In this document: one piece after another, positions 1-5,352 of the stretch
How the letters are laid out: every line of letters begins with the position of its first letter
How positions within the stretch are numbered: position 1 is the stretch's first letter
From: Clostridia bacterium
GTDB taxonomy: Bacteria; Bacillota_A; Clostridia; Christensenellales; Aristaeellaceae
DNA: 5,438 nt
Reading direction: 5' to 3'
NCBI GenBank assembly: GCA_017397695.1
Contig: JAFQIF010000167.1
Span: 1 to 5,438, forward strand
Program-made: the position numbers and the translations under genes
The notes under the pieces: model-generated
Databases searched by the model: none
The model's input: only the letters and a program-made list of their open reading frames with translations
Told to the model about the DNA's origin: nothing

Positions 1-1
1 G

Positions 2-178
2 GTGCTCTGCTCGCATGACGATATCGTTTATTGCTCGAACTGCGGCAGACTCCTGAAGAACTACTCTGCCACCATCACCGGCGTGCGCGGTGTGCTGAAC
101 GGCCATACGCTCTACTGGGTCACTAGGAACTGCTGTGGCCATAAGTCCAGCATCATTGATACGGAGATTCATGGCTGA
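2..178 (+). CDS. C-terminal part of a small Cys-rich, zinc-ribbon-like protein (partial)
   Basis: An open frame runs in from the left edge and stops at TGA 176-178, giving 58 visible residues. The visible part has a YCSNCG knuckle (CxxC) and, about 35 residues later, an NCCGH cluster, with an earlier LCSHDD. Paired Cys/His sets like this suggest a small zinc-binding ribbon, but I do not recognise the family. GTG at position 2 could be a start, but no upstream sequence is available, so the gene is treated as truncated by the window edge. Only 21 bases separate its stop from the next plus-strand gene, which has its own ribosome site, so the two are probably co-transcribed. A short Cys-containing peptide substrate cannot be excluded. 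The CxxC pattern and tight spacing to the next gene are seen directly; the zinc role is inferred. Confidence 0.5.
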   Translation: MLCSHDDIVYCSNCGRLLKNYSATITGVRGVLNGHTLYWVTRNCCGHKSSIIDTEIHG

Positions 179-199
179 CGGCGAAAGGCGGGAAAAAAG

Positions 200-424
200 A
201 TGAAGAAGCTTTCACAGGCCTTTGATTTCCAGAAGTTCCAGCAGAATCCCAAGCTGGCGGGCATCGTCCGCGAAACAGAAGGGCGCTACGCCAAGGCCGC
301 TTTGTCCGACGACGATCTGGCGCAGGTCAGCGCAGCGGGCGAAACCACCGTTCCGACAATGGAACCGGAAGTGCTGCTGGGCAGGCATGCACGCCCCGAC
401 AATCCGGAGGATAACAGGCCGTGA
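200..424 (+). CDS. 74-residue RiPP/bacteriocin-precursor-like peptide with leader-type N-terminus
   Basis: The start ATG at 200 is preceded by an AAGGCGGG ribosome site (186-192) at a 7-base spacing. The peptide reads MKKLSQAFDFQKFQQNPKLA, then an acidic stretch ALSDDDLAQVSAAGE (residues 34-48), then a Pro- and charge-rich tail of about 26 residues ending NPEDNRP. Acidic LSDDDLxxVSAAG just before a small-residue pair resembles the cleavage region of double-Gly or Nif11-like leaders. The preceding FDFQKFxxNPKLAxIV segment resembles the amphipathic helix of such leaders. The tail has no Cys, one His, three Thr and no Ser, so lanthipeptide or sactipeptide rings are not possible in the usual form. 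It may instead be a small conserved protein or a precursor modified at other residues. No maturase or peptidase transporter is visible here. The leader resemblance is pattern recognition, not a search result. Confidence 0.6.
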   Translation: MKKLSQAFDFQKFQQNPKLAGIVRETEGRYAKAALSDDDLAQVSAAGETTVPTMEPEVLLGRHARPDNPEDNRP

Positions 425-595
425 TAGCGGTGCTGTAGCCGCTGCCTGTCAGGTTGTCTAAACCCGTTTGAGGATGATGTTCACCCTGGCTGTCAAGGCG
501 ATATGCAGTGAGGTATGCCTTTATCCGAACGAACTCCGGAAACGGAATTGTAGGACATGTCCAGTCATTTGAAGCGAGTATCGAAAAACGAAGAA

Positions 596-623
596 GAGGA
601 ATGAACAAGATCGTTCACTCCTC
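596..623 (-). other. Stem-loop in repeat copy A
   Basis: GAGGAATGAAC (596-606) pairs with GTTCACTCCTC (613-623) around a 6-base loop, giving 11 positions. One position (601 with 618) is an A-C mismatch in plus-sense RNA but a G-U pair in minus-sense RNA. The same stem is kept in copy B, which makes minus-strand transcription the better guess. Confidence 0.6.
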
Positions 624-635
624 TGATAGCAAAGA

Positions 636-653
636 TGTACTCGAATTGTACTC
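636..653. repeat. TGTACTC direct repeat pair, 11-bp period (copy A)
   Basis: TGTACTC occurs at 636-642 and 647-653, separated by GAAT. The 11-bp period puts both heptamers on the same face of the helix, as expected for a site bound by two protein subunits. The heptamers are identical in copy B while the 4-base spacer differs (ATAT). The binding role is inferred. Confidence 0.65.
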
Positions 654-664
654 AATAAGCATGC

Positions 665-706
665 AAAAAGCCCGGAATCCCTTGATTTGCAAGGGGTTCC
701 GGGCTT
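665..706 (-). terminator. Factor-independent terminator of the ABC importer operon
   Basis: The arms at 668-684 (AAGCCCGGAATCCCTTG) and 690-706 form a 17-position stem with a 5-base loop and a single imperfect pair (678 with 696). Read on the minus strand the hairpin runs directly into TTTTT (complement of 665-669), the usual layout for Rho-independent termination. It lies 177 bases past the permease stop, with no gene between. On the plus strand the hairpin is followed by GAATTTT, so weak termination in the other direction is possible. Confidence 0.8.
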
Positions 707-882
707 GAATTTTACGTCCACTCCCGGCAGGCTTGCTGATGCAAACAGATTTGCTCAGAAGATACGGTCCTCGCGATCTGGCCGATGTGCATGATCCGAG
801 GTATGTGGGCTCTCTGATACGCGTTGTCAGAGCGTTGCCGCCGGGGTAATCTGTTTACAAAGGGGCTGGATGGGAACGTTGC

Positions 883-2535
883 TCAGACGATCTTGACCTT
901 GCCCTTTGTCAGGCGGAAGACGATGAGCATGGAGGCCACCGTTGTCACTGAAAGGATCGTTGCAAGGGCTGCCGCGGTACCGTCGCTCATGCGGACAACT
1001 TCCTGGTAGATCGCAACTGCGATGGTAGAAGTGTTGCCGGAGTAGAGCATGATGGAGCTGGACAGCTCGTTGATGCAGGTGATCCAGCTGAGCACTGCGC
1101 CGGACATTACGCCCGGAAGCATCATGCGCGCAGTCAGTGTGAAGAAGGTCTTCATCGGAGAAACACCGAGGTTGATGGAGGCTTCCTCTACGGACGGATC
1201 CATCTGATAGAGGAAGGCACTGCCTGAGCGAACGGTATAGGGCAGTTTGCGCACGATGTAGGAAATGATCATGATGGCAGCCGTACCTACGAGGATGATC
1301 GGTTTGCGATTGAACGCAACGATCAAGCCGATGCCGAGAACGGAGCCGGGAATCACGTACGGGAACATGATCAGCGTATCGATAACGCTGGCTGCCTTGC
1401 CCTTCTTGCGTACGAGTACGTAAGAGATCAGGATGCCGAAAATCACAATGAACACAATTGCGACCAGCGAGAAGGAATAGGTGTTGAAAATGTTCTGGCC
1501 AAGGCGGGAGAGGATCGCGCGGTAGTTGTTCAGGTTCACGCCCTGCACGACGCCGGAGAAGCTGCGCTCCACGAAGGACTGGCAAACCACAACGATCTGC
1601 GGCAAAAGCGCCAGGAATATGATCAGATACACCGGGAAAGCGGCTGCAAAACGCTTGAAGCCGTGCAGCTGCGTTTCCTTGGGCGGACGCAGGGTGCTCA
1701 TGGTGTAATTCTTCTTGTCGATGATCAGCTTCTGAATGCCCAGCATGACCAGTGAACAGGCGACAATGATGACCGACAACGCGGAAGCCATGAACGGATC
1801 TGTTGCCGATTCGGACATGTACTCGTTGTATACCAGCACAGGCAGTACGGTGTAGCCTTCACCCAGGAGCATAGGGGTGCCGAAGTCCGCCAAGCAAGTC
1901 ATGAAAACCATGACGCAGCCAGCCAGAATCGACGGCAGTACGACCGGCAGTGTGACCGTCATGATGCGACGGAACTTGTTCATGCCCAGATTCTCTGCAG
2001 CTTCTTCCAGAGAAGCGTCGATGCTGTTCATCGCGCCGGACGTGTAGAGATACACATAAGGGAACAAATGCAGTGTAAACACAAAGATGATGCCGTTGCG
2101 CCCATATATTGTGGGAGCAGTCAACCCTATGGTGCCCAGCAGCTTCGCCAGCAGACCATTGCGGCCCAGCAGCAGGATCCACGAATATGCACCGATAAAC
2201 GGCGGACTCATGAGGGAGAGGATGATCAGCACATGCAGAAGATTCTTTCCCGGAACGTTGAAACGTGTCATCACATAGGCAATGAACACGCCGATGATGC
2301 AGGAAAAGACCATTGTGGATGAACAGATGACCATGGAGCGGATCAGCGTGCGGTAATAGTACTTCTTGCTGAAGAAACGCTCGAAGTTATACAGCGTAAT
2401 GCCATCCACTTTGCTGGAGAAAACACTTTTGGTCAGAATCGTGTAGAAGGGGTAGATGATGAACAAACACAGTGTGACCAGCACGATGGCTTTCACAAAA
2501 AACCAGAAATCCAGCTTGATCTTGCGTCGTGTCAT
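883..2535 (-). CDS. Fused two-domain ABC importer permease (FbpB/AfuB-like)
   Basis: This 550-residue inner-membrane protein forms the translocation path of a binding-protein-dependent importer. It contains two homologous permease halves in one chain, each with about six hydrophobic segments. In the first half these lie near residues 12-34, 66-90, 100-122, 148-165, 192-215 and 248-270. In the second half they lie near 296-318, 354-376, 385-408, 413-427, 470-490 and 518-541. Each half has the EAA coupling loop that docks on the ATPase: EEAAENLG at 177-184 and EEASINLG at 450-457. Length and layout fit the fused permeases of Fe(III)/AfuB-type importers. The start ATG overlaps the ATPase stop as ATGA (2535-2532), and GGGGAGGTG (2552-2544) lies 8 bases upstream, so the start is secure and translation is probably coupled. 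It is the last gene of the operon. Substrate cannot be read from the permease. Confidence 0.93.
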   Translation of the reverse strand: MTRRKIKLDFWFFVKAIVLVTLCLFIIYPFYTILTKSVFSSKVDGITLYNFERFFSKKYYYRTLIRSMVICSSTMVFSCIIGVFIAYVMTRFNVPGKNLLHVLIILSLMSPPFIGAYSWILLLGRNGLLAKLLGTIGLTAPTIYGRNGIIFVFTLHLFPYVYLYTSGAMNSIDASLEEAAENLGMNKFRRIMTVTLPVVLPSILAGCVMVFMTCLADFGTPMLLGEGYTVLPVLVYNEYMSESATDPFMASALSVIIVACSLVMLGIQKLIIDKKNYTMSTLRPPKETQLHGFKRFAAAFPVYLIIFLALLPQIVVVCQSFVERSFSGVVQGVNLNNYRAILSRLGQNIFNTYSFSLVAIVFIVIFGILISYVLVRKKGKAASVIDTLIMFPYVIPGSVLGIGLIVAFNRKPIILVGTAAIMIISYIVRKLPYTVRSGSAFLYQMDPSVEEASINLGVSPMKTFFTLTARMMLPGVMSGAVLSWITCINELSSSIMLYSGNTSTIAVAIYQEVVRMSDGTAAALATILSVTTVASMLIVFRLTKGKVKIV

Positions 2536-3605
2536 TTGGAAAGCACCTCCCCGCCCTCATCATAGAGGCTGATGCGGGCAGCATCAAAGCGGATGAATAC
2601 CTTTTCGCCGATCTCGTGCATGCTGGTGGTGTCTTTGGTGTATTCGTTGATGATCAGTTCCTGCCCGTCATCCAGCTGGATTTCGTACTCAATGAAGTCG
2701 CCCAGGAAGGTGGAGAAGAGCACCTTGCCCGGCATGCCCTCCTGACCAAAGAAAAGCTGTTCAGGGCGTGCAGAGATTTGGGCCTTGCCTGTGTAGTTTC
2801 TTCTGACAGGAATGTTGATATCCAATTCGCCCCTGATGGATACACAGGCAGAATCTTCAGTGCAGGAAGTTACTTCACAGTTGAGGAAGTTGCTCACGCC
2901 GATAAAGCCTGCAACGAAGGGATTCTCAGGCTTGGCGTAGATCTCCGTCGGCGTGCCGATCTGCATGACCTTACCCTGGTTCATAACAGCAATGCGGTCA
3001 GAGATCGCCAGCGCTTCCTCCTGGTCATGGGTAACATAGATGGTGGTGATGCCCAGGCGGCGCTGAAGCTTTTTGATGATAGAGCGCATCTGCACACGAA
3101 GCTTGGCGTCCAGATTGGACAGCGGCTCGTCCATCAACAGCACGCTCGGTTCGATAACGAAAGCACGAGCCAGAGCAACGCGCTGCTGCTGTCCGCCGGA
3201 AAGCTCGCTGGGCTTGCGCTTGGCCAGGGGCAGGATCTGCACCAGGTCAAGTGCTTCCTTGACGCGCTTTTCGATCTCCGGCTTCTTGACGCCGCGTGCT
3301 TTCAGACCATAGGCGACGTTTTCTTCGACCGTCAGGTGCGGGAAGATGGCGTAGTTCTGGAAGACCATGCCGATGTCGCGCTTATGGGCCGGAACGTTGT
3401 TAATGATCTTGTCGCCAAAGAAAAACTCGCCGCCTTCGATGGAGTTGAAGCCCGCGATCATGCGCAGCAGCGTCGTTTTACCGCAGCCGGACGGGCCAAG
3501 GAGAGTAAAGAATTCACCTTCCTTAATATGAAGGGACACATCGCTCAGGGCGGTAAAATTGCCGTAGCGCTTGACGGCATTCTTGATGATGACTTCGTTG
3601 CTCAT
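2532..3605 (-). CDS. ABC importer ATPase, CysA/PotA/FbpC type with C-terminal TOBE-like domain
   Basis: This 357-residue cytoplasmic ATPase powers the importer and would work as a dimer on the EAA loops of the permease. All nucleotide-binding motifs are intact: Walker A GPSGCGKTT (37-45), Q-loop Gln83, signature LSGGQQQ (135-141), Walker B VLLMDEP (155-161) and the switch His193. After the nucleotide-binding domain, the linker EIYAKPENPFVAGFIG (221-236) leads to a beta-rich region of about 120 residues typical of the TOBE regulatory domains in CysA, PotA, FbpC and MalK-class proteins. Full length suits this class. AGAGGAA (3618-3612) lies 6 bases before the ATG. A GC-rich hairpin (CGGGC 3626-3630 with GCCCG 3637-3641) sits just upstream of that site and could affect initiation. 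The 165-bp gap from the binding-protein gene carries an attenuator-like hairpin. Family is certain; substrate is not determined by this subunit. Confidence 0.95.
   Translation of the reverse strand: MSNEVIIKNAVKRYGNFTALSDVSLHIKEGEFFTLLGPSGCGKTTLLRMIAGFNSIEGGEFFFGDKIINNVPAHKRDIGMVFQNYAIFPHLTVEENVAYGLKARGVKKPEIEKRVKEALDLVQILPLAKRKPSELSGGQQQRVALARAFVIEPSVLLMDEPLSNLDAKLRVQMRSIIKKLQRRLGITTIYVTHDQEEALAISDRIAVMNQGKVMQIGTPTEIYAKPENPFVAGFIGVSNFLNCEVTSCTEDSACVSIRGELDINIPVRRNYTGKAQISARPEQLFFGQEGMPGKVLFSTFLGDFIEYEIQLDDGQELIINEYTKDTTSMHEIGEKVFIRFDAARISLYDEGGEVLSK
2544..2552 (-). promoter_or_regulatory. Ribosome binding site of the permease, inside the ATPase gene
   Basis: GGGGAGGTG on the minus strand lies 8 bases before the permease ATG and inside the last codons of the ATPase gene. 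It decides the start used and supports translational coupling across the ATGA overlap. Confidence 0.8.
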
Positions 3606-3660
3606 ATGTACTTCCTCTCTCCATTCGGGCAGCTCAGCCCGCTGATGAAATGATGAAAAC

Positions 3661-3683
3661 AGGGGGACACTGTGTGTCCCCCT
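3661..3683 (-). terminator. Intercistronic hairpin, probable attenuator between binding protein and ATPase genes
   Basis: AGGGGGACAC (3661-3670) pairs perfectly with GTGTCCCCCT (3674-3683), a 10-bp GC-rich stem with a 3-base loop. On the minus strand it is followed by GTTTTC, a short U-run. It sits 88 bases past the binding-protein stop. A second small stem (GTGTTT 3688-3693 with AAACAC 3703-3708) lies just before it in the transcript. A leaky terminator or 3'-protecting hairpin here would give more binding protein than ATPase and permease, a common arrangement in importer operons. The hairpin is seen directly; partial read-through is inferred from the absence of any clear promoter before the ATPase gene. 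Confidence 0.65.
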
Positions 3684-3770
3684 TGAAGTGTTTGCCGTTG
3701 AGAAACACCAACTTCTCCGATTCAGTTATGGAAAATGCATACTGATTCGGTATACCTCGCTGGCTGTTGA

Positions 3771-4760
3771 TTACTCCTCGGCTTCGATGGTCAGGTCGTT
3801 CCACTGCTCAACGATCTCGGCCTTCTTGGTGGCAGCGTAGGCAAAGTCGTAGTTGCCCAGGTCGAGGGTATCCAGGCCCACCAGGCCTTCGGGCGTCAGG
3901 TCGGTACGGACGGGACGACGGGCCCAATCCTTGTTCTGAGCGGTCTGGCACTCCAGGCCGGTCACGAAGTCGATAAACAGCTTGGCGTTATCGGGGTTGG
4001 GGCAATCCTTGATCAGGGCAACGCCGTCCGGCACAGCGGAGTTCTTGGCGGGGTAGACATAGCCGATGTCGGGATTGTCGTTGTACAGCACAGCAGACTT
4101 TTCGATCGTCACGCCCACAGCGTATTCGCCGGAAGCGACCAGCTTATGGCAGTTGCCGGAGGAGGACTGAACCTTGCCGTCCAGGTTCTTGATGAAGTTG
4201 AAGACCATGTCCCAGCCCTCTTCGATGGTGGGCTTGGAGAAGAGCATGGTGCACAGCTGGGTGTAGGCAGAGCCGGACTTCGCGGGGGAAGCGTAGGCGA
4301 TCTTGCCCTTCAGGTTCTCATTGCACAGGTCGTCCCAGGTCTTGGGCACGTCTTCCTCAGCGATGAGGGTCTTGTTGTAGATGAAGACCATGGGCAGGGG
4401 AGACTCGCCGATCCACATATCGGCAGCATCCTTGTAGGCATCGCCGATCACGGCATCATTCGCGCAGACGTAGGGAGCGAAGTAATCCACATAGCCCGCC
4501 AGGGTATCTGCGCCGCCGCCCCACAGAACGTCGCCCTGGGGGTTGGCAGACTCAGCAACGATGCGCTGGCACAGCTCGCCGGTGCCGGCAGCGATGACCT
4601 GCACATCAATGTCCGGGTAAGCAGCCTGGAACAGTGCAACGCCTGCATTCAGGGGATCTGCATCATGGGGGGAGTAAACGACGAGGCTGCCGTCAGCCAG
4701 CGCAGCGGTGGCGCTCAGGAGCAGCATCATGGAGAGAATGAGAGCAAAAAATTTCTTCAT
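3771..4760 (-). CDS. Secreted ABC importer substrate-binding protein, Fe(III)/AfuA-like class (COG1840 type)
   Basis: This 329-residue protein captures the substrate outside the membrane and delivers it to the permease. Residues 1-22 form a signal peptide: MKK, a hydrophobic core, then the AxA-type site ALA before Asp23. No Cys follows the core, so it is not a standard lipoprotein. The mature protein begins with SLVVYSPHDADPL (25-37), followed by AGTGELCQRI (58-67), NPQGDVLWGGGADT (73-86), a hinge-like PMVFIYNK (123-130) and SSGNCHKLVASGEYAVGVT (200-218), a pattern of type II binding proteins of the Fe(III)/AfuA class. There is no adjacent Tyr-Tyr pair, the usual iron ligand of FbpA. Seven Cys occur in the mature part (64, 99, 146, 170, 204, 253, 271), unusual for an exported protein. 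AAGGGAGGT (4775-4767) lies 6 bases before the ATG. It is the first gene of the operon, behind a strong promoter. Class is secure; substrate is open among sugar phosphate, phosphonate and iron. Confidence 0.9.
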   Translation of the reverse strand: MKKFFALILSMMLLLSATAALADGSLVVYSPHDADPLNAGVALFQAAYPDIDVQVIAAGTGELCQRIVAESANPQGDVLWGGGADTLAGYVDYFAPYVCANDAVIGDAYKDAADMWIGESPLPMVFIYNKTLIAEEDVPKTWDDLCNENLKGKIAYASPAKSGSAYTQLCTMLFSKPTIEEGWDMVFNFIKNLDGKVQSSSGNCHKLVASGEYAVGVTIEKSAVLYNDNPDIGYVYPAKNSAVPDGVALIKDCPNPDNAKLFIDFVTGLECQTAQNKDWARRPVRTDLTPEGLVGLDTLDLGNYDFAYAATKKAEIVEQWNDLTIEAEE

Positions 4761-4829
4761 GGAAAAACCTCCCTTATGATTGGAAGCCGACCAATTAACG
4801 TACAGGTGGCATCCATTATTGTTATACTA

Positions 4830-4858
4830 ATTCTACCATAGGATAGTTGGGATGTCAA
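4830..4858 (-). promoter_or_regulatory. Sigma-A-type promoter of the ABC importer operon
   Basis: On the minus strand, a perfect TTGACA -35 (4858-4853) and TAGAAT -10 (4835-4830, five of six consensus bases) are separated by exactly 17 bp. Transcription should start near 4823, leaving a leader of about 62 bases before the binding-protein ATG at 4760. That is too short for most riboswitches, and I see no strong fold in it. Confidence 0.88.
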
Positions 4859-4910
4859 GTGAAAGTAGTTTCTTGTTGAAATAAAGGCAGGAATCCAAGC
4901 GCTTTGCCTT
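4856..4910. promoter_or_regulatory. Candidate operator region upstream of the operon promoter
   Basis: Two dyads lie at and upstream of the -35 box. The first, 4856-4875, is an imperfect dyad (CAAG-GAAA against TTTC-TTG) that touches the -35. The second is the perfect palindrome AAGCGCTT (4897-4904), with a central CG as in LacI-family or CcpA sites, though the outer cre bases do not match well. It is bracketed by AAGGCA (4884-4889) and TGCCTT (4905-4910), which are inverted. No regulator gene is visible in the window. Regulation by either site is inference. Confidence 0.3.
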
Positions 4911-5070
4911 AATCAGCTACAGCGGTAAAGATCAGAAGTGTACGCAGTGGCTGCAACGCAGGCTGAAGAGACACTGCAGGTAGTTTTGAATGCCTTTATC
5001 TGTACTGCCTTCGGAAATGGCGTTGAAGGAGGTTTTCGATCATTTGAAGGTAGTAACGATAAATGCAGAA

Positions 5071-5098
5071 GAGGAACGAACAAAACCGTTCACTCCTT
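5071..5098 (-). other. Stem-loop in repeat copy B
   Basis: GAGGAACGAAC (5071-5081) pairs with GTTCACTCCTT (5088-5098) around a 6-base loop. Positions 5076/5093 and 5077/5092 are mismatched in plus-sense RNA but form G-U pairs in minus-sense RNA. The outermost pair goes the other way. The balance favours a minus-strand RNA, as in copy A. Confidence 0.55.
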
Positions 5099-5121
5099 TG
5101 ATAGCGGCATGACAGCAAAAA

Positions 5122-5139
5122 TGTACTCATATTGTACTC
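5122..5139. repeat. TGTACTC direct repeat pair, 11-bp period (copy B)
   Basis: TGTACTC occurs at 5122-5128 and 5133-5139 with spacer ATAT. Both heptamers and the 11-bp period match copy A exactly, although the surrounding repeat has diverged, which suggests they are under constraint. Confidence 0.65.
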
Positions 5140-5150
5140 AACAGGCATGC

Positions 5151-5192
5151 AAAAAGCCCGGAACTCCTTGATTTGCAAGGGGGTCCGGGCTT
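5151..5192 (-). terminator. Factor-independent terminator at the end of repeat copy B
   Basis: The arms at 5154-5170 and 5176-5192 give a 17-position stem with loop ATTTG, carrying one A-G mismatch (5163 with 5183) and one T-G position (5165 with 5181). On the minus strand it runs into TTTTT (complement of 5151-5155). It would stop transcripts arriving from the right, including any from the possible gene ending at 5353, and so insulate the importer promoter at 4830-4858. Confidence 0.7.
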
Positions 5193-5197
5193 GAATT

Positions 5198-5352
5198 GAG
5201 CGGATATGTGAGTGATTTGCAAGGGGAACAGAGGCGTGGAAAGAGGATTTCTTTTCGGAACACATCGAGTGAGGAGGCTGATTTTGTGATCCGAACAGGC
5301 ATGAGTTGCTGAGCATATTTGCCATGGATGAGCGGTGACGAATCTTGGCGCA
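5198..5352. other. Stretch without a recognisable gene right of repeat copy B
   Basis: I see no convincing gene here. Short open frames cross it on both strands but lack good ribosome sites and protein-like composition. If the minus-strand frame ending at 5353 is real, this is its 3' untranslated region, about 160 bases long up to the copy B hairpin. Confidence 0.4.

Follow-up and report, generated by a model that had tools for sequence, protein, structure and literature searches.

The stretch of DNA analysed here in full (the window; 5,438 nucleotides of contig JAFQIF010000167.1 from a Clostridia bacterium of the Aristaeellaceae) contains an ATP-binding cassette (ABC) importer operon between two direct copies of a structured repeat, copy 1 at 515..711 (197 nt) and copy 2 at 4990..5197 (208 nt), both on the plus strand. 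The operon consists of three minus-strand genes (883–4760), which encode a substrate-binding protein (3771..4760, 329 aa), an ATPase (2532..3605, 357 aa) and a fused permease (883..2535, 550 aa), with NCBIfam scores of 126.2 bits to PhnS2 (cut-off 392.75), 393 bits to PhnT2 (cut-off 457.7) and, for the permease, 200.7 bits to the closest model, PhnU2 (cut-off 593.25). As all three lie below the equivalog cut-offs, the operon was not assigned to the 2-aminoethylphosphonate importer PhnSTU2. These are the only genes with domain matches between the repeats, with no genes for integration or transfer among them, and neither an integrase nor a relaxase is encoded anywhere in the window. The original prediction, that the copies enclose the operon together with its promoter, stands for the three-gene importer, whereas the promoter, a promoter-like site of the form TTGACA-17-TAGAAT on the minus strand (4830..4858), is a consensus match in a window with four such sites against a shuffle mean of 3.5, i.e., with no excess. 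A hairpin with a T tail is also found between the substrate-binding protein and ATPase genes (3661–3683), and is perhaps a partial terminator, which would set the ratio of the two products.

In a global alignment, the two copies are identical at 163 of 208 columns, with a single 11-nt gap and a difference at 17% of the aligned bases, and their local score of 122 compares with no more than 24 in any of 500 mononucleotide shuffles. The ungapped identity over the first 117 bases is 76.9%, in agreement with the earlier estimate of about 77%, and the shared orientation and order of parts claimed for the copies were also confirmed, given that an inverted repeat, a series of 7-bp sites and a hairpin are present in both. 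In copy 1, the inverted repeat AGAGGAGTGAAC..GTTCATTCCTCT (595..624, minus strand), followed on that strand by a T-rich tail, adjoins the first of three putative arm-type sites on the plus strand (624..653; TGATAGC at 624, TGTACTC at 636 and 647), and its counterpart in copy 2 (5070–5099) likewise lies next to the first of four (5099..5139, plus strand; TGATAGC at 5099, TGACAGC at 5110, TGTACTC at 5122 and 5133). The sites lie 11–12 bp apart within the copies, and the 11-nt gap is one unit of 7+4 nt, i.e., the additional site of copy 2. Each copy then has a strong minus-strand hairpin with a T run, at 668..706 in copy 1 (RNA fold of -29.5 kcal/mol), and at 5154..5192 in copy 2 (-22.9 kcal/mol), for which the label “terminator-like” was retained because of the RNA folds of both. 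The hairpin of copy 1 appears to be placed to end the importer transcript, and that of copy 2 could keep transcription that starts upstream out of the operon.

The likeness between the copies does not stop at some 200 bp. On the 3' side of copy 1 lies a degenerate core, TTTACGTCCACTC (711..723, plus strand), which has two mismatches to TTTAYTCCCACTC, the core at the 3' end of guaA, and this is followed by a second shared arm (724..846, plus strand), recognised through sequence matches in relatives. Copy 2 is followed only by the distal piece of such a second arm (5199..5280, plus strand), with neither the core nor the proximal part. This piece matches the distal second arm at 26 of 31 nt in the locus L042 and at 71% over 31 aa in P0001, the sole relative found for an open reading frame (ORF) of copy 2, which can itself be aligned with the DNA of the junction; the nucleotide match spans few bases, and the assignment depends on the P0001 alignment as well. 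These matches suggest a second junction to the right of copy 2, from which the core and the proximal part of the arm have been lost.

Relatives were collected through the substrate-binding protein of the window, and 308 genomes of their family were searched. Copy 2 matched 17 of these at E≤1e-3, several of the matches being of 21–48 nt and confined to the hairpin part, while a full search of 21 chosen genomes found matches at E≤0.1 in 19; the family-wide DNA searches scored two candidates per genome, and their copy counts are thus lower bounds. One genome, G221, has five distinct places that match the copy. The repeat was thereby upheld as a dispersed family that often lies behind genes, and its copies follow many unrelated genes, with the hairpin as the best-conserved part. 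In five of the 20 copies compared from relatives (L041, L048, L049, L050 and L053), the arm is found directly at the 3' end of guaA, and other arms often end in the letters of the guaA end where there is no guaA. The core TTTAYTCCCACTC, with up to two mismatches and within 45 nt of the 3' arm of the hairpin, is present in 16 of 22 copies (the two of the window included in the count), some of the 16 representing one locus in related genomes; the six copies that lack it include copy 2, and arms with no recognisable core are found at L041:4775, L055 and L057. With up to one mismatch, the core occurs at 22 places in 556 kb of fetched loci, which are 13 guaA ends, eight arms elsewhere and one other site, and as these loci were chosen for guaA, arms or the operon (known overlaps removed), the figures record co-location rather than an unbiased enrichment.

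The region behind guaA was then compared directly. The gene was searched in 30 genomes, of which 26 matched, with 25 loci that have the EWE* end and 24 with enough sequence (left out were G305, with 33 nt left, L135, L138 and L140–L142, which lack the EWE* end, and four matches without a locus). In the next 130 nt after guaA (115–126 nt in three cases), an exact 7-bp repeat at a pitch of 11 bp was present in 16 of the 24 stretches, against 0.21 expected from dinucleotide shuffles, while the other pitches from 8 to 30 were found in 0–2 stretches each. The sequence of this ladder repeat varies between elements. In ten genomes (G004, G212, G213, G217, G219, G220, G221, G285, G292 and G293), an integrase ORF related to those of L042, L049 or L057 lies behind guaA, a number of the other guaA loci being cut by contig ends, and Arm-DNA-bind_4, SAM and catalytic domains were found in both of the integrases scanned. 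Integrases that share a repeat type are 97–98% (GATAGC), 98% (GGCAAC), 82% (GAGTACA) or 74% (GATAAC) identical, in comparison with 45–66% between the groups; a site sequence that tracks the integrase lineage would be expected of arm-type sites, and could also result from the common descent of whole elements. The copies of the window belong to the GAGTACA type, read as TGTACTC on the plus strand, and its first arm matches arms beside guaA or integrases at 78–95%, as well as those of an array in G221. Given this guaA-type layout beside tyrosine integrases, the repeat was taken for the arm on the integrase side of an attachment site, with copy 1 and copy 2 as putative P arms and the second arm as a putative P' arm.

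For the second arm, positions 712–850 of the window match five places in four of the 308 genomes, and with a 36-nt partial copy in L043, there are seven copies in all, the window included. Every one of them comes directly after a core, which has no more than one mismatch in four of the copies and two in those of G186, G209 and the window, and in six of the seven, the other side of this core is an arm, none having been found on that side in G186. The G186 contig aligns with window positions 718–4066 in one stretch at 91% nucleotide identity (98.5–99% for the permease), and that of G209 with positions 712–1112 at 82.6%, up to the contig end. The left neighbours of this unit differ: the window has copy 1, G209 a GATAGC-type arm and G186, by our reading, another hairpin. 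This indicates that the operon moves as one with the core and second arm, and that the join changes at the core. A horizontal transfer of the operon into G186 had also been considered, given that its RpoB is 94.5% identical to that of G106 and 71.0% to that of G001, in comparison with 84.4% and 93.4% for the permease. This argument was dropped, as G186 has two RpoB matches (L165 and L172) and its 63-kb operon contig is probably misbinned in a mixed draft, a 20-kb piece of it matching all eight genomes asked, mostly at 65–73%, without G106 being the best of them, and the 9.6 kb adjacent to the operon matching only G209 and G301 of 14 genomes, at 67–75%; only the junction was used.

A parallel arrangement is found on contig C5 of G221, where four junctions with the same direction occur within 26 kb. 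They delimit a 10.8-kb element (L042:1398–12160), a 203-aa gene with no family match and a 13.8-kb segment with an oligopeptide-type (Opp-like) importer, GH88, GH38 and an AraC regulator. The 10.8-kb element encodes an integrase, a Xis-like protein and a Mob_Pre relaxase, with Phage_integrase and Mob_Pre over the Pfam cut-offs and MobV (50.8 bits) and ICEBs1-Xis (33.3 bits) below the NCBIfam cut-offs of 100, and it is flanked by cores at 1386 and 12160, so that this element, rather than the window, has the integrase, relaxase and flanking cores of an integrative and mobilizable element (IME). The order of second arm, cargo and first arm recurs in this array, whose second arms are matched by that of the window. 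Other cargo may be seen in G210 and G215, where the arm next to guaA is preceded by a GH127 gene, and in G219, where a LacI gene follows the core and second arm; the genes beyond it are, by our reading, a binding protein and a permease, the truncated permease ORF having no Pfam match. A single unit of these genes would be pieced together from several genomes, as no one contig shows all of them.

The left flank of the window provides evidence of how the unit came to lie here. Positions 1–520 match 10 of the 308 genomes, five of them well, with identities from base 1 to 425–430, where the homology ends, of 93% in G218, 91% in G210, 82% in G002 and 78% in G124, and of 70% over 23–390 in G182. In these five loci, extended by 1.5 kb on each side, none of the six tested arms was found, nor any core with up to two mismatches. 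Moreover, the importer appears to be missing from G210 and G218: the substrate-binding protein had no match in either at 1e-40, and the permease, present at 1e-150 in 51 of the 308 genomes, was found in neither. This absence is not certain, as both are drafts and the permease search also overlooked G209, where the operon runs into a contig end. The simplest account of these comparisons would be that the operon and arms arrived together in the lineage of the window. The approximately 90 nt between the end of the homology and copy 1 (426–514) have no match in the fetched loci. The original prediction had proposed, as one option, the scar of a cassette gained, duplicated or lost by recombination between the copies, and of this, the gained cassette looks right, given the left flank with neither arms nor importer in G218 and G210, but the route does not: the copies resemble the integrase arms of elements that target the guaA 3' end, which makes site-specific recombination at the core the likelier one. 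A strain in which one hybrid repeat is left was not found, and in the relatives with the same left flank, no arm is present at this place.

Taken together, these data make it probable that the window represents an integrase-less element, similar to a cis-mobilizable element (CIME), with the ABC importer as its cargo, in a decaying tandem stack at guaA-type attachment arms. The repeat would be the integrase-side arm of the attachment site through which elements with a tyrosine integrase enter the guaA 3' end. It would run, from the core outward, through a core copied from the last ~12 bp of guaA, the terminator-like hairpin and the ladder of 7-bp sites at an 11-bp pitch, which would serve the arm-binding domain of the integrase. 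The proposed order of the unit is copy 1, core, second arm, importer, copy 2 and the remnant of another second arm, in which the core of copy 1 would have mutated and the core and proximal second arm at copy 2 would have been lost, presumably by deletion. An integrase of the GAGTACA site type, as in G213 and G220, may have moved the unit, either in trans or in cis.

A number of observations weigh against this interpretation. The core of copy 1 has its two mismatches, the best core match at copy 2 has seven, and no element with both ends intact was seen among the loci compared, nor an autonomous element with exactly the two arms of the window and an integrase. The right side of the unit is cut by contig ends in both G186 and G209, and the comparisons cover the window itself and the genomes of its relatives. 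The two terminator-like hairpins are absent from the output of a consensus terminator scan, which gave seven sites in the window against 4.5 in shuffles. A 7-bp repeat at pitch 11 was also present at eight of 136 control ORF ends (L041–L058), a rough control set that still contained arm copies. In addition, the operon is found in other relatives with no adjoining arms, in part with conserved neighbours (G003, G292, G293, G301 and G305; the neighbour table includes antisense ORFs and was used for shared neighbours only), so that the pairing of operon and arms is not obligatory.

The same elements of evidence bear on other explanations. The arms may be the leftovers of separate insertions and losses that flank an operon present by other means, with the bracket a coincidence in an array-rich region, and both the lack of a core at copy 2 and the existence of other arms with no recognisable core fit this account, as does the arm behind the same ABC permease gene in G221 (L044), G222 (L056) and G150 (L057), as if fixed there. 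It nevertheless appears rather unlikely, given that core, second arm and operon adjoin directly in three assemblies, that G218 and G210 share the left flank and yet have neither the operon nor either of the arms there, and that the order of second arm, cargo and first arm recurs in G221.

The window could also stem from a fusion, inside the repeat, of a left-flank contig with the operon contig of another organism during metagenome assembly, and the left flank does resemble that of G218 and G210, which lack the operon, while the operon resembles contigs in G186 and G001, with the break near a member of the repeat family. We hold such a join to be improbable, as the junction of arm, core and second arm occurs in other assemblies (L042, L046 and, by our reading, P0123), and copies that differ at 17% of their aligned bases would not readily be mistaken for one another, barring a third copy that is nearly identical. 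The position of the copies behind many unrelated genes and the conservation of the hairpin above all other parts would suit, on the other hand, an intergenic terminator or regulatory repeat, akin to the repetitive extragenic palindromic sequences, that spreads behind genes and is unrelated to integration; the guaA-end core outside guaA, a ladder tied to integrase lineages and the element genes beside arms make this highly improbable.

The preferred reading, that of a CIME-like unit, has parallels. In Streptococcus, CIMEs are described in the relevant sections of PMC5704250 and PMC7563491 as integrase-less cargo units of 1.2–13 kb with direct att sites, in tandem with IMEs or integrative and conjugative elements (ICEs), and in S. 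salivarius, they account for 10 of the 14 elements with carbohydrate-metabolism genes. The window is similar in its integrase-less cargo between direct arms, stacked in tandem, and in ends shared with related functional elements, its arms matching the guaA- and integrase-side arms and the G221 array; in place of attL and attR, two direct arms are observed, with a degenerate core at copy 1 and none at copy 2. It differs in that it comes from another branch of the Firmicutes, that one att end is damaged and that its location at guaA and its mobilisation are predictions. The 3' end of guaA is also the target of IMEs and ICEs such as ATE-1, an IncP island and GIsul2, as listed in the part of PMC5704250 on this site, and for ICE_SmiB6_guaA, the corresponding account in PMC4701971 gives only the exact guaA 3' end as direct repeats. 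The target gene and the direct repeats derived from its end are shared with the present system, whereas integrase and relaxase are absent from the window and both present in the G221 array element. The N-terminal arm-binding domain of tyrosine recombinases, their accessory arm sites near the core and an epsilon15 cluster that targets the guaA 3' flank are covered in sections of PMC8138268, in comparison with which the ladder of 7-bp sites at an 11-bp pitch beyond the guaA-side hairpin is a prediction from sequence.

Searches of the literature on mobile elements of Ventricola or Christensenellales, guaA island hot spots and importer CIMEs in gut Clostridia gave no recognisable equivalent among the matches listed. 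The gene cassettes of integrons resemble the window in having repeats of one orientation between different cargo, but the L049 integrase scored 53.5 bits to TIGR02249 against a cut-off of 265, and has Arm-DNA-bind_4. The guaA target, exact 3'-end repeats, CIME cargo and tandem accretion are already in print, as the pertinent passages of PMC5704250, PMC7563491 and PMC4701971 attest, and the present system would accordingly be a further example among known guaA-targeting and CIME elements; a cassette family with common ends is an additional possibility.

Such a family is proposed only tentatively, as doubtful at present: integrase-less modules, each with a second arm, cargo and a laddered first arm, would shuttle nutrient-import operons between guaA-type sites through the integrases of neighbouring elements. 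The candidates are the window importer, the unit of the 203-aa gene in G221 and its Opp-like/GH88/GH38 unit, and perhaps the LacI/ABC/GH127 genes of G219 and G210. What this offers is a concrete route by which gut Clostridia may gain and lose nutrient importers, together with a signature (guaA-end core, hairpin and 11-bp ladder) for finding integrase-less units, and, as the ladder sequence shifts with the integrase lineage, a recognition of arm sites that is testable by comparison.

Among the minor results, no match to the repeat was found in Rfam at E≤1 or in the IMG/VR pattern scans, nor to copy 2 in the phage and plasmid records searched. A protein-like reading of the repeat was rejected, as the two repeat ORFs tested matched no Pfam family; a search with P0001 gave P0122 and P0123, which, by our reading, likewise align to the DNA junction. 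The same arm stands behind the same ABC permease gene at L044 and L045 in G221, L056 in G222 and L057 in G150, with a changed core, TTTACTCACGCTC, at all of these loci except L057, where the hairpin has been replaced and a different integrase gene is located ~1.6 kb away. A lone core-like match, TTTATTCCCATTC, occurs at L042:13272–13284, away from any arm or guaA.

The left chromosomal flank (1..425, plus strand) contains two small ORFs on the plus strand, neither with a match over a curated cut-off. The first (2–178) is Cys-rich, with a CCGH motif and a sub-threshold zinc-ribbon match only, and the second (200–424) includes LSDDDLAQVSAAGE, which we read as bacteriocin-leader-like; both may encode peptide precursors. 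In G218 and G002, a gene of the sigma-70 family overlaps the stop of the second ORF, and in G210, by our reading, another gene occupies this position.

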